This document shows positions 2,840-18,543 of a stretch of DNA of 20,328 bases, piece by piece. How positions within the stretch are numbered: position 1 is the first letter of the stretch; the number at the start of each line of letters is the position of its first letter. A model generated the notes under the pieces. That model worked only from the letters and a program-made list of their open reading frames with translations, searched no databases and was not told the origin of the DNA. Origin of the DNA: a virus; the IMG/VR virus record IMGVR_UViG_3300046689_000442, positions 1 through 20,328 of that record, one strand, 5' to 3'. A program made the position numbers and the translations under genes.

Positions 2840-3030
2840 GGTTTGGTCCTTCGGTGATTATCAATAAACGCGGTGATGTCGGATGCCGCAAAGCGGATTG
2901 CACGCCGTTTGCGACCACGCCCGACTTCGATGTAGGAAATTTCACCGTCCCGAACGTGCCGCATCAGCGTCTTGGTGCTGATGGTCAATTCCTTGGCAGT
3001 CTGTTCGGGCGATAGAGTTAGCCCCGTCAT
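2698..3030 (-). CDS. Excisionase-like HTH DNA-binding protein (110 aa)
   Basis: Residues 1-60 form a MerR/HTH_17-type winged helix typical of phage excisionases: LSPEQTAKELTISTKTLMRH, then a wing (GEISYIEVGRGRKRRAIRF) and an end helix (SDITAFIDNH). The C-terminal 45 residues are basic and probably disordered. The start at 3030 is chosen because AAAGGAGG lies 7 nt before it; the upstream start at 3057 lacks such a site. The gene runs into the integrase and overlaps it by 142 bases in another frame, much more than the few bases usual here. Likely role: directionality factor for the integrase, by family and position. An AlpA-like regulator is the alternative. Confidence 0.8.
   Translation of the reverse strand: MTGLTLSPEQTAKELTISTKTLMRHVRDGEISYIEVGRGRKRRAIRFAASDITAFIDNHRRTKPCLSKQEGKAGRITTHSALRVYDFMDRLKRPTARKPKSLRRPRGTKR
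2841..2851 (-). promoter_or_regulatory. Start-associated leader copy 1 (integrase)
   Basis: AAGGACCAAAC directly before the integrase ATG. It is the short form of the repeated leader: it lacks the upstream CCAACC block and lies inside the preceding gene. Confidence 0.6.
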
Positions 3031-10683: not shown

Positions 10684-10701
10684 TTGGTCCTTTGGTTGGT
10701 T
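10684..10701 (-). promoter_or_regulatory. Start-associated leader copy 2
   Basis: AACCAACCAAAGGACCAA, ending 4 nt before the ATG of the 27-aa membrane peptide. Confidence 0.75.
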
Positions 10702-10774
10702 AGAACGCATCATCAAAAATGATCCACAAGACAATGGCGATGATGCCGGCCATTGGCAGGGCGGTACTACTCAC
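10700..10774 (-). CDS. Tiny hydrophobic peptide (24 aa from GTG, or 17 aa from ATG 10753)
   Basis: From GTG 10774 the peptide reads MSSTALPMAGIIAIVLWIIF and ends DDAF. The GTG overlaps the last codons of the upstream HTH gene, and AGGTG lies a few bases before it. The internal ATG at 10753 would give only MAGIIAIVLWIIFDDAF and lacks a ribosome binding site. Hydrophobic single segment with an acidic end. Its stop sits inside the leader of the next gene. Tentative. Confidence 0.4.
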   Translation of the reverse strand: MSSTALPMAGIIAIVLWIIFDDAF

Positions 10775-10967
10775 CCGGCACCTGTTTGGGGATGCCGTGC
10801 TTGCGATACATATGAAGCAACAGTTCTAGCTGGCGCGTGACACGTTGCCGGCCGGATGCCAGCCGCTGAATCTGCGTCACGGTCACGCCAAGCGCGCGCA
10901 CGGTCGCTTTGCTGGCAGTGCCAAGGTGCAATTCTTTAAGCGCTGCTAGGAATTCACGTTTGGTCAT
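10767..10967 (-). CDS. Small HTH regulator (66 aa)
   Basis: Compact helix-turn-helix: REFLAALKELHLGTASKATV, then RALGVTVTQIQRLASGRQRV, followed by TRQLELLLHMYRKHG. The layout (F...L..L......A..LGV....I.R..SG...V....ELLL) is common to short Xre-like proteins of rhizobial phages and plasmids. The start at 10967 is preceded by AAAGGGACGCA; the upstream ATG at 10982 has no such site. It overlaps the preceding gene by 14 bases. Likely regulator of the small-gene cluster. Confidence 0.7.
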   Translation of the reverse strand: MTKREFLAALKELHLGTASKATVRALGVTVTQIQRLASGRQRVTRQLELLLHMYRKHGIPKQVPGE

Positions 10968-11412
10968 TGCGTCCCTTTGCATTCACAGCGTCCACAATCA
11001 TCACGACAAGCCGGCCGCTTGCTGTGTCTAGCGGCTCCTTGTCGGTTTCCTCGATGTAGGGCAGTTCAAAAACAAGCCTGTCGTTTTTGTCCACGATGGC
11101 AAACGTGTCGCCGTTGCCCCGGAATTCCCACGGCGTCGGCGGCAATCCGCTACGCTCTGAGTCTGCCAGCGCCTTCGACTCGTTGGTGTGGCGGATGTAG
11201 TAGCCCATCAGCTTGGTGGCCACGGCGATGTTGACATCGTTTGCCAGCTTCACCGGCTCAATTTCTTTGCAGTACCGTGTTAGGACCTTTTGGCGAACGT
11301 GCTCCATCCACTCGCCTAAATCCTTGCCAACTAGGGCAAGGTGCGTCTGGTAGAATTCGCCGGTATTGATTGCATACGGTTCCAGATCGTGCGCTTCGAC
11401 AAAACGGGTCAT
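10954..11412 (-). CDS. Hypothetical protein of the leader-motif cluster (152 aa)
   Basis: Begins MTRFVEAHDLEPYAINTGEF and has a mixed alpha/beta pattern: a helical middle (LVGKDLGEWMEHVRQKVLTR, then ANDVNIAVATKLMGYYIRH) and a strand-rich end (DTFAIVDKNDRLVFELPYIEE, LVVMIVDAV). No family recognised. The start at 11412 follows a diverged leader copy (CAAGGACCATAGAC). The longer frame to 11466 would cross the hairpin at 11449-11478. Overlaps the HTH gene by 14 bases. Confidence 0.7.
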   Translation of the reverse strand: MTRFVEAHDLEPYAINTGEFYQTHLALVGKDLGEWMEHVRQKVLTRYCKEIEPVKLANDVNIAVATKLMGYYIRHTNESKALADSERSGLPPTPWEFRGNGDTFAIVDKNDRLVFELPYIEETDKEPLDTASGRLVVMIVDAVNAKGRNDQT

Positions 11413-11417
11413 GTCTA

Positions 11418-11433
11418 TGGTCCTTGCTGGTTG
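11418..11433 (-). promoter_or_regulatory. Start-associated leader copy 3 (diverged)
   Basis: CAACCAGCAAGGACCA before ATG 11412, with a further CCAACC block a few bases upstream. Confidence 0.65.
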
Positions 11434-11448
11434 TCGGTTGGGGTATAT

Positions 11449-11478
11449 AGCCCTATTGCCTACCAAGGCAATAGGGCT
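11449..11478 (-). other. Perfect 12-bp hairpin in the intergenic leader
   Basis: AGCCCTATTGCC / GGCAATAGGGCT (11449-11460 with 11467-11478), 6-nt loop, between the stop of the 90-aa gene and the leader of the 152-aa gene. On the transcribed strand it is followed by ATATACC, not a T tract, so it is a poor terminator. It could be an operator, an RNA-processing site or an attenuator. Confidence 0.7.
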
Positions 11479-11484
11479 AATGGC

Positions 11485-11757
11485 TTAGACGTTAACAGGA
11501 TGGAAGCCGGCGGCATTGAACGCATCAAAGCCGTTCGGCGAACGGTCGCCTCTGGCAATCCGCAAGGAAACGACAAGCGGAATTCCAAGCGCGGCCGCCT
11601 CTTGTTTGTAGGTTTCCAGTTCGGCCGCCGCATCTATGGTGCGTTTAATTTCTACCGTCTTTGACGGCAGCGGCCCATCGCTGCCGATACTAAGCGCGAC
11701 TTGCAGAAAGCCATTTGAACGTTGGGCGTTGTAGGTCGATAGAATAAGCTTCGCCAT
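11485..11757 (-). CDS. Hypothetical protein of the leader-motif cluster (90 aa)
   Basis: Reads MAKLILSTYNAQRSNGFLQV and on, with strand-rich start (LQVALSIGSDG), a helix (DAAAELETYKQEAAALG) and a strand (IPLVVSLRIARG). No family recognised, no membrane segment, no cysteines. A full leader copy precedes the ATG. The frame is clean and codon use matches its neighbours. Confidence 0.7.
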   Translation of the reverse strand: MAKLILSTYNAQRSNGFLQVALSIGSDGPLPSKTVEIKRTIDAAAELETYKQEAAALGIPLVVSLRIARGDRSPNGFDAFNAAGFHPVNV

Positions 11758-11761
11758 TGTC

Positions 11762-11778
11762 TTGGTCCTTGGTTGGTT
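11762..11778 (-). promoter_or_regulatory. Start-associated leader copy 4
   Basis: AACCAACCAAGGACCAA, 4 nt before ATG 11757; the commonest form of the motif. Confidence 0.8.
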
Positions 11779-11800
11779 GACGGCACCATCGCCATCGTGA

Positions 11801-11860
11801 CACGGCCGGCAGGGTGTGGCGGACCTGCGCGGCCGTGCTGCGATAGCGACTGATTAGGCC
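11801..11860 (-). repeat. Intergenic hairpin repeat, copy A
   Basis: CACGGCCG (11801-11808) pairs with CGGCCGTG (11830-11837), with an inner GCAGG/CCTGC stem. It is followed by GATAGCGACT and TAGGCCGC at the end of the 130-aa gene. Copy B at 12970-13024 shares all of these blocks. Confidence 0.65.
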
Positions 11861-12246
11861 GCCTCTTGCAGTGGTTCCGACTCTGCCAAGGACTCCGGTA
11901 TGAAGTCCCAGTTAGGCAGGTCGATTGTCACGGTCCCGAAAGTCACGGCGCGAATTCTGCGCTCCCATCGGGACGCGTTGTTAGCGCTCACACCTGACCA
12001 GATCACGCTAACGCTGTATGTGTTGGGCAACACAATCCCGTCGCGCTTGGCAAGCCATCGGGCATAGTCGGCGGCCTTGCGCTCAAATTGCGAGTCGGTG
12101 GTTGGCGTGACTTTCGGGCGCTTGGGTGCGCGGTAGTGCAGCTTGTGGCGCTTGCCGTCCGCTATCCAGCGCTTTAATGGCATCGGGCCTTGCTGCGGCT
12201 GGTAACCCTCGCTGCGTTGCGTGAATGCGTCGTAAAATTTCCACAT
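11854..12246 (-). CDS. Hypothetical protein of the leader-motif cluster (130 aa)
   Basis: No family recognised. Basic N-terminal half (RWIADGKRHKLHYRAPKRPK), then a helix (ERKAADYARWLAKRD) and a strand-rich C-terminal half (YSVSVIWSG, AVTFGTVTIDLPNW), suggesting a small alpha/beta, possibly DNA-binding protein. The leader is a double one: AAGGACCAAGGACC before the ATG. The stop lies in intergenic repeat A. Confidence 0.7.
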   Translation of the reverse strand: MWKFYDAFTQRSEGYQPQQGPMPLKRWIADGKRHKLHYRAPKRPKVTPTTDSQFERKAADYARWLAKRDGIVLPNTYSVSVIWSGVSANNASRWERRIRAVTFGTVTIDLPNWDFIPESLAESEPLQEAA

Positions 12247-12272
12247 GGTCCTTGGTCCTTTTGGTTGGTTGG
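12247..12272 (-). promoter_or_regulatory. Start-associated leader copy 5 (doubled core)
   Basis: CCAACCAACC and AAAAGGACC followed by a second AAGGACC directly at the ATG of the 130-aa gene. Confidence 0.8.
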
Positions 12273-12288
12273 AGTCTGCCTGATATGT

Positions 12289-12639
12289 TCAACGGTGCGG
12301 CTCATCAGCTTCGCAGTGGCGTGCAATGCGCGCCTCTTTATCCTCTGCCACCTCGCAATAGCGCGCTTGCAATTCTTCATAGAGCATGGCCGCCATGCTG
12401 CCGGGCAGGACTCCATTGCTGGTCAGGCCCGGCCGGTACATCGAGGCACACAAGGCCGCATAAAGATTTGACCATTGTCCGCCATGCCAGTCGTTTGCAA
12501 ACCAGTAGATTGCGGCCTCACGGTCAAATTGGTCTGCCTCGCCGGGATAAAAGCCGGCGAGAAAGGTAAGCATTTCGTTTCTGGTGGGGTCGCGCATGGT
12601 GCGCGCCTTGTCAGCCTGTAATCGCTTTGTGAGGGTCAT
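12289..12639 (-). CDS. Hypothetical phage protein (116 aa)
   Basis: Helical, acidic protein: EMLTFLAGFYPGEADQFDRE, then AAIYWFANDWHGGQWSNLYA. It has a conserved-looking aromatic core and reads like a small accessory protein of the type found in clusters in rhizobial phages; no named family. ATG 12639 is preceded by a full leader copy. In-frame ATGs at 12597 (MRDPTRNEM) and 12573 lack any site. Confidence 0.7.
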   Translation of the reverse strand: MTLTKRLQADKARTMRDPTRNEMLTFLAGFYPGEADQFDREAAIYWFANDWHGGQWSNLYAALCASMYRPGLTSNGVLPGSMAAMLYEELQARYCEVAEDKEARIARHCEADEPHR

Positions 12640-12643
12640 AGCG

Positions 12644-12662
12644 TTGGTCCTTGGTTGGTTGG
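12644..12662 (-). promoter_or_regulatory. Start-associated leader copy 6
   Basis: CCAACCAACCAAGGACCAA, 4 nt before ATG 12639. Confidence 0.8.
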
Positions 12663-12935
12663 CTACAGGCCGCGCAAGCTTGCGCGGATGATGGCCGGAA
12701 TTCTGGCCGGCCTATCAATGCGGTATGTGCTGCCTAGCGATGGCAGGACAGAAAGCGTTTTGCCTTGTTCGCGGTAGCTGGTTAGCTCAAAAGGTTCGAC
12801 GATGGCGCAGTCGCGCTTTTTCACGCGGACATAGAGCACATCAATGCCCCATGGAGTCCCGTCGCTATAGCGTTTCGTTTCGCGGCGGAATTCAAGGCGG
12901 CCGCGTTTGCGCCAGACGTTCTTTTTGCTCGGCAT
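12663..12935 (-). CDS. Hypothetical basic protein (90 aa)
   Basis: Strongly basic N-terminus (MPSKKNVWRKRGRLEFRRET), then beta-rich segments (GIDVLYVRVKKRDCAIVEPF, KTLSVLPSLGSTYRI). No family recognised; an OB-fold- or SH3-like small protein is conceivable from the strand pattern but unproven. A leader copy precedes the ATG, and the stop abuts the leader of the next gene. Confidence 0.7.
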   Translation of the reverse strand: MPSKKNVWRKRGRLEFRRETKRYSDGTPWGIDVLYVRVKKRDCAIVEPFELTSYREQGKTLSVLPSLGSTYRIDRPARIPAIIRASLRGL

Positions 12936-12939
12936 TGTC

Positions 12940-12955
12940 TTGGTCCTTGGTTGGT
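12940..12955 (-). promoter_or_regulatory. Start-associated leader copy 7
   Basis: ACCAACCAAGGACCAA, 4 nt before ATG 12935. Confidence 0.8.
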
Positions 12956-12969
12956 CGATAGCCTTAGAT

Positions 12970-13024
12970 GCTATCCCGACACGGCCGGCATTGCGCCGGC
13001 CGTGCTAGATAGCGACTAGGCCGC
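12970..13024 (-). repeat. Intergenic hairpin repeat, copy B
   Basis: 10-bp perfect stem CACGGCCGGC / GCCGGCCGTG (12980-12989 with 12995-13004), 5-nt loop, inside an outer GCTATC/GATAGC stem. GATAGCGACTAGGCCGC follows at the ArdC stop. Shared with copy A at 11801-11860. No T tract on the transcribed strand. Confidence 0.7.
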
Positions 13025-13909
13025 GACTGCAAGCGGCTCTGCGAGTGCAAGGCCGCGCATATAATCGGCGGCCTTTTGTGCAGCGCTTGCCGCTGTGAAG
13101 AATGCTTTGGAGTCTGACTTTAGAATAGCAATCCAGTTCGACACATAGGCCGCATGGCGCAAATCGCCGTCGATACCGAATTCAGCGCAAAGGAAAGCCG
13201 CTGTGAGTTCAGCGACCAATTCTTCCGCCGCATAGGCCTTGTCGCCAAAGCGCTTTCCGAATTCGCGGTTAAGCCGCTTTTCGTTGCCAGTCCAATGGCC
13301 GTGTTCATGGAAGCTTGTCGCATAGTAATGGTCAGCGCCTTTGAAGTCTTGGAAGTTAGGCAACATCACAAAGTCATGGCTGGAAGCGTAGTAAGCCCGG
13401 TCCTCGCCATGCCTCAAGTCGCTGCCAAGCGTGGCAATGAATGAGTCAACGGTAGAGTCGCGGCTGTCCTTGTTCCTGATTTTTGGCGCGACTGTGCCAA
13501 GGCAACGGGCCGGCAAGTTGTCGCATTGGGCGACGTTGAAAACGGTGAATTCGCGCAACATGGTGATGCGCTTCAATTCTTCATCACCGGCTGGCTGTTC
13601 TTTCTTGCCCTTAACCAGTAGCGGCTTCACAAAGTAAACCTGTATGCCGTGCTCATCCTTTTTGACGTGTCCGCCTAGCGCTTGGCATTGCTTGAACGTC
13701 AGGAAGCGGGGAGTCGTCCACTGCGGATTAGATGCCATGGCTTGCCAAATCAGGATGATATTGACGCCCGAATACGGCCGGCCGGTATCCGCATTGCAAG
13801 GTTGATTGGCACCGGCTGTCGCTGCCCATGGCTTGACCCATGGCACACAGCCTTTTTCCAGTTCAGAAAGAATTCGGTTTGTTACTGTCTGGTACAGGTC
13901 TTTTTTCAT
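13016..13909 (-). CDS. ArdC-like antirestriction protein: ssDNA-binding N-domain plus zincin metalloprotease (297 aa)
   Basis: Residues 1-135 match the ArdC N-terminal domain (KKDLYQTVTNRILSELEKGC, VPWVKPW, RPYSGVNIILIW, ITMLREFTVFNVAQCD), known to bind single-stranded DNA in plasmid ArdC. Residues 155-285 are a zincin-like domain with H201-E-H-G-H205 (SFHEHGHWTG) and the downstream glutamate helix (EELVAELTAAFL), the third metal ligand. ArdC-type proteins protect incoming DNA from host restriction. It is the first gene of the minus-strand leader-motif cluster, directly behind its promoter, as expected for a protein needed early. Full length, no damage seen. Confidence 0.9.
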   Translation of the reverse strand: MKKDLYQTVTNRILSELEKGCVPWVKPWAATAGANQPCNADTGRPYSGVNIILIWQAMASNPQWTTPRFLTFKQCQALGGHVKKDEHGIQVYFVKPLLVKGKKEQPAGDEELKRITMLREFTVFNVAQCDNLPARCLGTVAPKIRNKDSRDSTVDSFIATLGSDLRHGEDRAYYASSHDFVMLPNFQDFKGADHYYATSFHEHGHWTGNEKRLNREFGKRFGDKAYAAEELVAELTAAFLCAEFGIDGDLRHAAYVSNWIAILKSDSKAFFTAASAAQKAADYMRGLALAEPLAVAA

Positions 13910-13930
13910 GGTCCTTGGTCCTTGGTTGGT
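13910..13930 (-). promoter_or_regulatory. Start-associated leader copy 8 (doubled core)
   Basis: ACCAACCAAGGACC followed by AAGGACC at ATG 13909 of the ArdC-like gene. Confidence 0.8.
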
Positions 13931-13940
13931 CGCTGTGATG

Positions 13941-13970
13941 GTTATATGCCCTTATCGTGTATGGTGTCAA
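13941..13970 (-). promoter_or_regulatory. Sigma70-like promoter of the minus-strand cluster
   Basis: On the minus strand TTGACA (13970-13965) and TATAAC (13946-13941) are 18 nt apart, about 30 nt before the ArdC start. GGTTATATGCCCTTA (13940-13954) overlaps the -10 and a near copy, GGTTATATGGTCTAA (13974-13988, 12 of 15 identical), lies upstream of the -35, so operators are likely. Confidence 0.7.
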
Positions 13971-14017
13971 TAGGGTTATATGGTCTAAATGTTCCATAAC
14001 AGTGGCGAATTGACTAG

Positions 14018-14033
14018 GTAAAAGAACGGTTTA
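14018..14033 (+). repeat. 16-bp direct repeat, copy 1
   Basis: GTAAAAGAACGGTTTA, identical to 14853-14868. Here it lies between TTGACT (14010-14015) and TACAAT (14032-14037), a possible second plus-strand promoter. The surrounding stretch, 13989-14158, holds no gene that I can see. Confidence 0.6.
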
Positions 14034-14158
14034 CAATGAGCCGCAAGGATGGCCGTGGGCGGGTTTAAAGGCGGTGCGGGGATAGCAGGTAGCGGGGAGG
14101 TTTTTTAAAGGCTTGTAGGGTCAAATGGCCTATTAGACTAATTGAGCATATACACCTA

Positions 14159-14187
14159 TTGACAGCATGGCGGCCGGATGTTAAAAA
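14159..14187 (+). promoter_or_regulatory. Sigma70-like promoter of the plus-strand pair
   Basis: TTGACA (14159-14164), 17-nt spacer, TAAAAA (14182-14187), 30 nt before the 66-aa gene. CATATACACCTATTGACAGC around the -35 aligns with CATATAACCCTATTGACACC at the divergent promoter, so the two probably share a regulator. Confidence 0.65.
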
Positions 14188-14190
14188 CCG

Positions 14191-14217
14191 CAACCAACTG
14201 AGAAAGGACCAAAGCAA
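14191..14217 (+). promoter_or_regulatory. Start-associated leader copy 9 (plus strand)
   Basis: CAACCAACTG, then AGAAAGGACCAAAGCAA directly before ATG 14218. Shows that the leader belongs to gene starts and not to one strand. Confidence 0.75.
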
Positions 14218-14418
14218 ATGACCAAATCAAGTTTTTACGCAGACGGGTATCGCGACGGGCAAAGCGGCAAGGACTATTGCCCGCCAGACGTTGCCGTGTA
14301 CGGGCAAGAATATGCGGCCGGGTATGTTGATGGCCGGGCAAGAACATTCGTCGATGTCGGAACCGTAAGCGAGTACGGATTGACACAAAAACTAAGCAGC
14401 GCAATTCGCTGTTTTTAA
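14218..14418 (+). CDS. Small RMF-like protein (66 aa)
   Basis: Residues 7-42 read YADGYRDGQSGKDYCPPDVA followed by YGQEYAAGYVDGRA. The order GY-x2-G-x2-G-x-D/R...CP...Y/W-x2-GY/W resembles ribosome modulation factor, which dimerises ribosomes into inactive 100S particles in stationary phase. The end is unrelated and acidic/hydrophobic (FVDVGTVSEYGLTQKL). The resemblance is by eye and the core is short. Preceded by a leader copy and a good promoter. Confidence 0.65.
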   Translation: MTKSSFYADGYRDGQSGKDYCPPDVAVYGQEYAAGYVDGRARTFVDVGTVSEYGLTQKLSSAIRCF

Positions 14419-14420
14419 CT

Positions 14421-14442
14421 CCAACCAAAAAGGACCAACCAA
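14421..14442 (+). promoter_or_regulatory. Start-associated leader copy 10 (plus strand)
   Basis: CCAACCAAAAAGGACCAACC ending 2 nt before ATG 14443. Confidence 0.8.
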
Positions 14443-14733
14443 ATGAAAACGCCACAAGTACCAGCAATGCCGGGGATGACGCCACTGGGATTGAAGCCGG
14501 CCTATCCGACAAGCCCGCCCTATGTCGTCGGCGCGATGGCGGTACGGCGCGCGATGATGTTCTACGCAAAGACGGGGATGAAGGTTAACAGCGCTTATAG
14601 CCCGGCCAACATGCTGGCCACGGCCGGTAAGATTTGCGGCAAGGACTACGGCAAGCGGTGGAACGCAAAGAACAGTGCGGCAGCCATCGCAGACCTGACA
14701 GCATGGCTGGAAGCGAACGGCGCGCCAGTGTGA
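14443..14733 (+). CDS. Hypothetical protein (96 aa)
   Basis: Proline-rich N-terminus (MKTPQVPAMPGMTPLGLKPA), a helix (AVRRAMMFYAKTGMKV), then KICGKDYGKRWNAKNSAAAI and a final helix (IADLTAWLEANGAPV). No family recognised; it reads like a small, soluble phage accessory protein. Full leader copy before the ATG; a strong terminator follows 22 nt after the stop. Confidence 0.7.
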   Translation: MKTPQVPAMPGMTPLGLKPAYPTSPPYVVGAMAVRRAMMFYAKTGMKVNSAYSPANMLATAGKICGKDYGKRWNAKNSAAAIADLTAWLEANGAPV

Positions 14734-18228: not shown

Positions 18229-18543
18229 ATGGTGGCATTAAGGAACATGGTTTTAGACAGCCCGCAATGTCACCCTGTGAGCATGAAAAAGAACGGCAAC
18301 GAACGCATCGCTTGGAACGTGCGCCGCATCCGGGTCGAAAAGGCGCTGTCGCAGGAGCAACTGGCGACCGATTCAGGCGCCGACCGCTCCTACGTCAGCC
18401 GGCTTGAGCGGGGACTGGAAAACCCCACCGTCGCCATGCTCGACCGCATCGCCAAGGCGCTCGACGTGACCATCGCCGACCTCTCGGCCATCCCGACCGG
18501 CCCCAAGCCGAAGCCGCTGCCGTCCGGGCGGCGTCCGCGTTAA
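18229..18543 (+). CDS. Xre-family HTH transcription regulator (104 aa)
   Basis: Residues 26-88 form an Xre/HTH_3 domain: IAWNVRRIRVEKALSQEQLA, then SGADRSYVSRLERGLENPTV and LDRIAKALDVTIADLS, with the ERGxxNPTV signature. The C-terminus is proline-rich. ATG 18229 follows AAGGAGGTGTA; the inner ATG at 18283 has no comparable site. Divergent to the minus-strand operon at 18140, so probably its repressor or activator. By form it may be a host-type or phage-type repressor. Confidence 0.9.
   Translation: MVALRNMVLDSPQCHPVSMKKNGNERIAWNVRRIRVEKALSQEQLATDSGADRSYVSRLERGLENPTVAMLDRIAKALDVTIADLSAIPTGPKPKPLPSGRRPR

Follow-up and report, generated by a model that had tools for sequence, protein, structure and literature searches.

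Results

The DNA analysed here (the window) is a whole virus record of 20,328 bases, itself a fragment with no host genome attached. Nine gene starts in the window, seven on the minus strand and two on the plus strand, carry the full leader CCAACC-(AA)n-AAGGACCAA-N4-5-ATG (Table 1). The leader is always in sense orientation relative to its gene and keeps a fixed distance to the start codon. In front of the integrase, AAGGACCAA is present and the CCAACC block is absent, making this a partial copy. The phage carrying these leaders is probably temperate and its host probably alphaproteobacterial. The ArdC-like antirestriction protein encoded at 13016–13909 has its nearest plasmid matches in Microvirga and Bradyrhizobium (55–57% identity), which is a hint of an alphaproteobacterial host.

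Table 1. Leaders, promoter/operator-like repeats and hairpins located in the window.
Feature	Position	Strand	Remarks
Short form AAGGACCAAACC, no CCAACC block	2840..2851	-	Before integrase (2839); within overlapping upstream ORF
Leader ACCAACCAAAGGACCAAACAA	10680..10700	-	Before 27-aa ORF, ATG 10679; same leader in L060 and L012
Degenerate leader CCAACCGACAACCAGCAAGGACCATAGAC	11413..11440	-	Before 152-aa gene (11412); L063 orthologue has canonical leader
Second inverted half-site pair, 40 bp	11444..11483	-	Upstream of 11412; weaker hexamers
Leader	11758..11780	-	Before 90-aa gene (11757); orthologous leader in L063
Hairpin, paralogue of 12968..13012	11789..11849	-	Before 11757 leader
Leader, GGACC doubled	12247..12272	-	Before 130-aa gene (12246)
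Leader	12640..12662	-	Before 116-aa gene (12639); directly 3' of stop codon of 12935 gene; one side of L060 joint
Leader	12936..12955	-	Before 90-aa gene (12935), missing from L060 and L012; other side of L060 joint
Strong hairpin (CGCTATC..GCACGGCCG..CGGCCGTGTC..GATAGC)	12968..13012	-	Between ArdC and 12935 leader
Leader, GGACC doubled	13910..13930	-	Before ArdC (13016-13909); kept in L060 and L063
ESAS-like putative promoter/operator of ArdC	13941..13982	-	Inverted 15-bp half-sites; TTGACA-N18-TATAAC; -10 box ends 31 nt before ATG
Single half-site CATATACACCTATTG	14147..14187	+	TTGACA-N17-TAAAAA; upstream of 14218
Leader CAACCAACTGAGAAAGGACCAAAGCAA	14191..14217	+	Before 66-aa gene (14218); L060 homology ends within it, unrelated 52-aa gene then
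Leader	14421..14442	+	Before 96-aa gene (14443); L060 keeps leader, 70-aa gene then

We scanned the 20,328 bases for CCAACC and AAGGAC separated by a gap of 0–11 nt, with one mismatch allowed in all, and obtained 12 matches: 11 fell at the nine starts, where 12246 and 13909 are counted twice because their GGACC is doubled, and one lay elsewhere, inside a gene (2698). The same scan of 200 dinucleotide shuffles gave a mean of 1.0 matches, with 0.16 start-linked on average and never more than 2, a test that is partly circular because the motif was derived from these very sequences. The independent check is the L063/L088 lineage described below, which has 12 leadered genes. A first-pass annotation of this DNA had listed ten near-identical leaders. 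All of its start coordinates are correct and the motif it gave precedes each start it named, but only nine copies are full, the integrase copy consisting of AAGGACCAA alone. Its observation that the motif accompanies start codons irrespective of strand agrees with the scan, and the motif is indeed absent from most other genes of the window, which use AGGAG-type Shine-Dalgarno (SD) sequences or none. Its RMF-like label for the 14218 gene was not borne out by any Pfam match.

Scans of a viral collection recovered near-identical contigs, the L060 lineage (about 90% identical) and a lineage of about 70% identity (L062, L063, L085, L086 and L088), in which a single 43,577-base contig carries both L063 and L088. 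L012 combines the L060 type and the window type in a mosaic. These relatives are metagenomic assemblies. A final helicase-alignment scan of the viral collection found no further lineages, and helicase relatives in four genome samples (397, 300, 250 and 337) were limited to distant matches in two genomes of the first.

Aligning 24 leaders of the three lineages at their AGGA brought out several features: (i) AGGA lies 8–9 nt from the ATG in 23 of the 24, and AAGGACCAA is almost invariant; (ii) AGGA is followed by CC in 22–23 and by AA in 19–23 of the 24, so that AAGGACC, not AAGGAG, is retained in 22; (iii) positions -10 to -4 are 88–100% A/C; and (iv) the A/C block upstream of AGGA varies in phase, the gap between the CCAACC and AAGGA blocks is variable, and above about -13 the information content is at background level. 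In the doubled copies (12246 and 13909), the upstream GGA has the usual 9-nt spacing and the downstream GGA is merely spacer. A CC after GGA is unable to extend pairing with the anti-SD of 16S rRNA. Conservation well beyond the SD core had been proposed from the window alone and extends to its relatives, where CCAACC and CCAA, and not only AAGGA, persist at about 70% nucleotide identity. The other SD-bearing genes of these phages have mostly AGGAG-type or other SDs. Because the remaining genes of these phages have either an AGGAG-type SD or no SD at all, the leader is a second start-site class within one genome and not a general preference of the host.

Predicted accessibility of the leader zone was 0.59, compared with 0.45 for other genes of the window (p = 8e-4), and dropped to 0.43 when the leader was swapped for random sequence. 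A CsrA/RsmA-type leader (CARGGA or ANGGA in a hairpin loop) was considered and rejected, since the base before AAGGA varies and the leaders are predicted to be relatively unstructured. Pairing of CCAACC to the GGUUGG near the 3' end of 16S rRNA, a stretch that lies in helix 45, was also discarded: in most copies, CCAACC and AAGGA follow each other on the mRNA in an order that does not allow them to pair jointly. An Rfam search gave no match.

Is the leader a signal of the host? Across 289 alphaproteobacterial genomes the full motif has a single occurrence, and the genome concerned had been chosen because of the motif; the leader is thus no host signal. A shorter form occurs at most about 5 times per genome in a phylum sample. 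Scanning 257 Gb genome-wide for the 16-nt leader plus ATG returned 14 stretches, about the chance estimate, none of them multi-copy. In the viral collection, CCAACCAACCAAGGA-N4-12-ATG was found in at least 119 stretches versus 35 with GTA replacing ATG and 28 for a permuted A/C block; each control is a single pattern and these ratios are rough. The excess of CCAACCAACC before AAGGA and ATG over the permuted block implies that composition alone is not the whole story. Among the matches listed, 11 contig groups unrelated at the DNA level, that of the window included, have at least four CCAA-rich leaders each, and the other groups tested have no protein kinship to the window group, one weak match excepted. 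CCAA-rich leaders are thus a recurrent feature of unrelated phages and often contain AAGGAG; AAGGACC characterises the window group and one other (L009/L016/L091/L099). In another unrelated phage (L076, 7519–9908), a TATATAAAGAACCAATAAAGANAAGGAGATG-like sequence stands five times before starts and looks like a promoter plus leader of a different type.

On the 43,577-base contig, the 12 leadered genes all lie within the first 16.2 kb, and the remaining 27 kb, with the major head, portal, terminase and tail genes, has 0 start-linked copies. Orthologues of ArdC, 11757, 11412 and 14443 are leadered in this lineage; for its 7 other leadered genes, blastp returned no match from the other lineages. 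Leaders persist in the relatives of about 90% and about 70% identity while the genes differ, and hence outlast the genes that follow them. In L060, which like L012 lacks the 12935 gene, the joint has on its left the sequence that precedes the 12935 leader and on its right the sequence that follows the 12639 leader; the switch point falls inside 17 nt common to both leaders (GACCAACCAAGGACCAA). At 14218, L060 retains the putative promoter together with the leader's first half, behind which stands an unrelated gene. At 14443, it keeps the leader, followed by the 70-aa gene and then by the 14443 homologue, whose start overlaps the stop codon. L012 switches from the window type to the L060 type at 12061–12226, inside the 12246 gene, which rules out this crossover as a leader joint; it may be a natural recombinant or a chimeric assembly.

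A second repeat accompanies a subset of the leaders. Inverted pairs of a 15-bp half-site (CATATRNCCCTATTG), 40 bp end to end with arms about 10 bp apart, lie upstream of ArdC (13943–13982) and of 11412 (11444–11483). The half-site pattern, which was derived from these sites, recovered both window pairs and yielded none from 500 shuffles. Inverted pairs are also found in L060 and L063, and thus in all three lineages. Within the half-sites lie -35/-10-like hexamers spaced 17–18 bp apart (weak at 11412). The -10-like box ends 29–32 nt before the ATG of ArdC (window, L060 and L063), 14218 and 11412, and about 40 nt before that of a 56-aa gene in L060 and a 45-aa gene in L063. Given the spacing of 29–32 nt, a transcript from the putative half-site promoters would start at the edge of the leader, which would then form almost the whole 5' UTR. 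The first-pass annotation had seen in the leadered genes one regulon including the integrase: the shared promoter/operator-like repeats favour such a set, but the integrase is no full member of it.

A hairpin element stands before the leaders of 12935 and 11757 and before one L063 leader. The strong hairpins of the region (11448–11479, 11789–11849 and 12968–13012) lie between a gene end and the next leader; two of the three are paralogues with identical leaders after them. The window also encodes an HTH_3 (Cro/C1-type) protein at 18229–18543 and a weak HTH-like small protein at 10767–10967. Both are candidates for a repressor acting on the inverted half-sites.

Discussion

What is the function of the leader? 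We propose, with a probability of roughly 0.7, that it is the standard translation-initiation module of small, exchangeable, non-structural genes in a probably temperate phage, where it works with a shared promoter/operator repeat. AAGGA, at a constant 8–9 nt from the start codon, would pair with the anti-SD end of 16S rRNA, its A/C-rich surroundings (CCAACCAA on the 5' side, CCAA on the 3' side) would keep the site single-stranded in the cell, and the CC after GGA may limit SD pairing to a short length. For promoter-proximal genes, the leader would be almost the whole 5' UTR of a transcript made from the shared promoter/operator, where a repressor may bind the inverted half-sites; elsewhere, it would lie within a polycistronic run. 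With both promoter and leader as standard parts, genes could be lost, gained or exchanged behind the leaders, sometimes via recombination between two leader copies. The earlier interpretation, which had offered a translational enhancer, a regulator site or a recombination seam, is as a whole partly supported.

In a plainer form of this proposal, the leaders could be ordinary SD sequences in A/C-rich, structure-poor surroundings, grown alike through selection for accessibility alone and with no cassette or promoter logic. That A and C cannot self-pair, that the leaders are predicted to be more accessible than other starts and that CCAA-rich leaders have accumulated in several unrelated phages gives this explanation a modest chance. 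However, CCAACCAACC-AAGGA-ATG outnumbers the one permuted block of equal composition at least fourfold, and AAGGACC has been kept rather than AAGGAG. A point against the proposed module itself is that neither CCAACC nor CC(AA) can extend SD pairing, so that plain ribosome binding leaves the exact letters unexplained. These letters may instead be the recognition site of an mRNA operator, through which an RNA-binding regulator or small RNA of phage or host would switch the cargo set. Conservation of the CC and the use of ordinary SDs by the other genes of the same phages fit such an operator, as do a form with a single A separating AACC from AGGA, present in 4 of the 9 window leaders and in none of 12 from the other lineage (p = 0.02), and the comparison of leader distances within and between genomes (p = 0.027). 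Yet the distances of the window leaders are barely lower within than between genomes (4.42 vs 4.45), and recombinational homogenisation accounts equally well for lineage-specific forms. Moreover, the gap between the blocks varies, the CsrA site CARGGA is not conserved, and we found no candidate RNA-binding protein. We thus regard an mRNA operator as doubtful.

The leader might, alternatively, be chiefly a recombination seam, a short homology for cassette exchange between phages in which translation is secondary. This idea, already raised in the first-pass annotation, gains from the one exact joint at the missing 12935 gene and from the two swaps in L060, at 14218 and 14443. But the breakpoints of L060 that fall at leaders (5 of 14) are enriched relative to uniform placement (p = 0.011) and not significantly so relative to intergenic placement (p = 0.12), the enrichment in L063 is not significant, and the L012 crossover falls inside a gene. 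A seam would also have no need of a constant AGGA-ATG spacing, and we consider exchange an unlikely primary role. A DNA-binding site such as a stoperator would likewise be repeated, asymmetric, 13–20 bp long and intergenic; it is very improbable here, as the leader is always sense-oriented at a fixed distance from the start, and stoperators in Cluster A phages work at the level of transcription and have been contrasted with start-associated sequences (PMC3203893).

The proposed module can be compared with known phage elements. PeSL cassettes of T4-type phages were reportedly described by Arbiol in 2010 and Comeau in 2014. As far as they are mentioned in PMC4503421, these promoter/stem-loop cassettes are, like the leader, repeated regulatory elements between small genes tied to gene shuffling; unlike them, the most constant part here is a translation leader. 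The start-associated sequences (SAS) of Cluster K mycobacteriophages, already named in the first-pass annotation as comparable but with a different motif, are the right comparison and match in layout. SAS (GGGATAGGAGCCC) typically lie 3–7 bp from the starts of non-structural genes of different families (PMC3203893), and about half of them have upstream an extended SAS (ESAS), with inverted repeats and SigA-like hexamers 17–18 bp apart (PMC11373665). As far as we found in the literature, this pair has been described only for Cluster K.

Like SAS (PMC3203893, PMC12699233), the leader is a short asymmetric repeat a few nucleotides from the ATG that joins an SD core to conserved letters unable to pair with 16S rRNA, and it serves only non-structural genes of unrelated families and is rare in the host. 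In contrast to SAS, it consists of two blocks with a variable gap (CCAACC-(AA)n-AAGGACCAA), has AAGGA followed by CC and not AGGAG as its core, serves genes of both strands and belongs to an unrelated phage. No leader comes within two mismatches of the SAS consensus, all being CCAACC..AAGGACCAA or close variants; what they share with start-associated sequences in general is a start-proximal position in one orientation, conservation beyond the SD, varied gene families and a non-structural region. By consensus the leader is therefore no Cluster K SAS, and judged by layout it would work like one. Similarly, some of the start-associated genes have upstream intergenic inverted repeats of 15–17 bp that hold -35/-10-like hexamers 17–18 bp apart (weak for 11412) and recall ESAS (PMC11373665), whereas the half-site CATATRNCCCTATTG is unrelated in sequence and its pairs span 40 bp instead of 46–47 bp.

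The role of SAS and ESAS was still called unclear in 2024–2025 (PMC11373665, PMC12699233) and PMC12699233 continues to ask for functional tests of SAS; the leader offers a short, swappable element for direct tests. It would also be one concrete way for phages to gain or lose small genes with expression retained. A rather speculative extension is that leader and promoter/operator repeat exert two-level control over a plug-in pool of early genes, with a trans-acting factor reading the mRNA leader, and that this arrangement arose independently in mycobacteriophages and here. In layout, the leader and its promoter-like repeat closely resemble SAS and ESAS with unrelated sequences, and this second occurrence of the same two-part layout, in a probably alphaproteobacterial phage, suggests that the solution has recurred rather than been inherited within one family.
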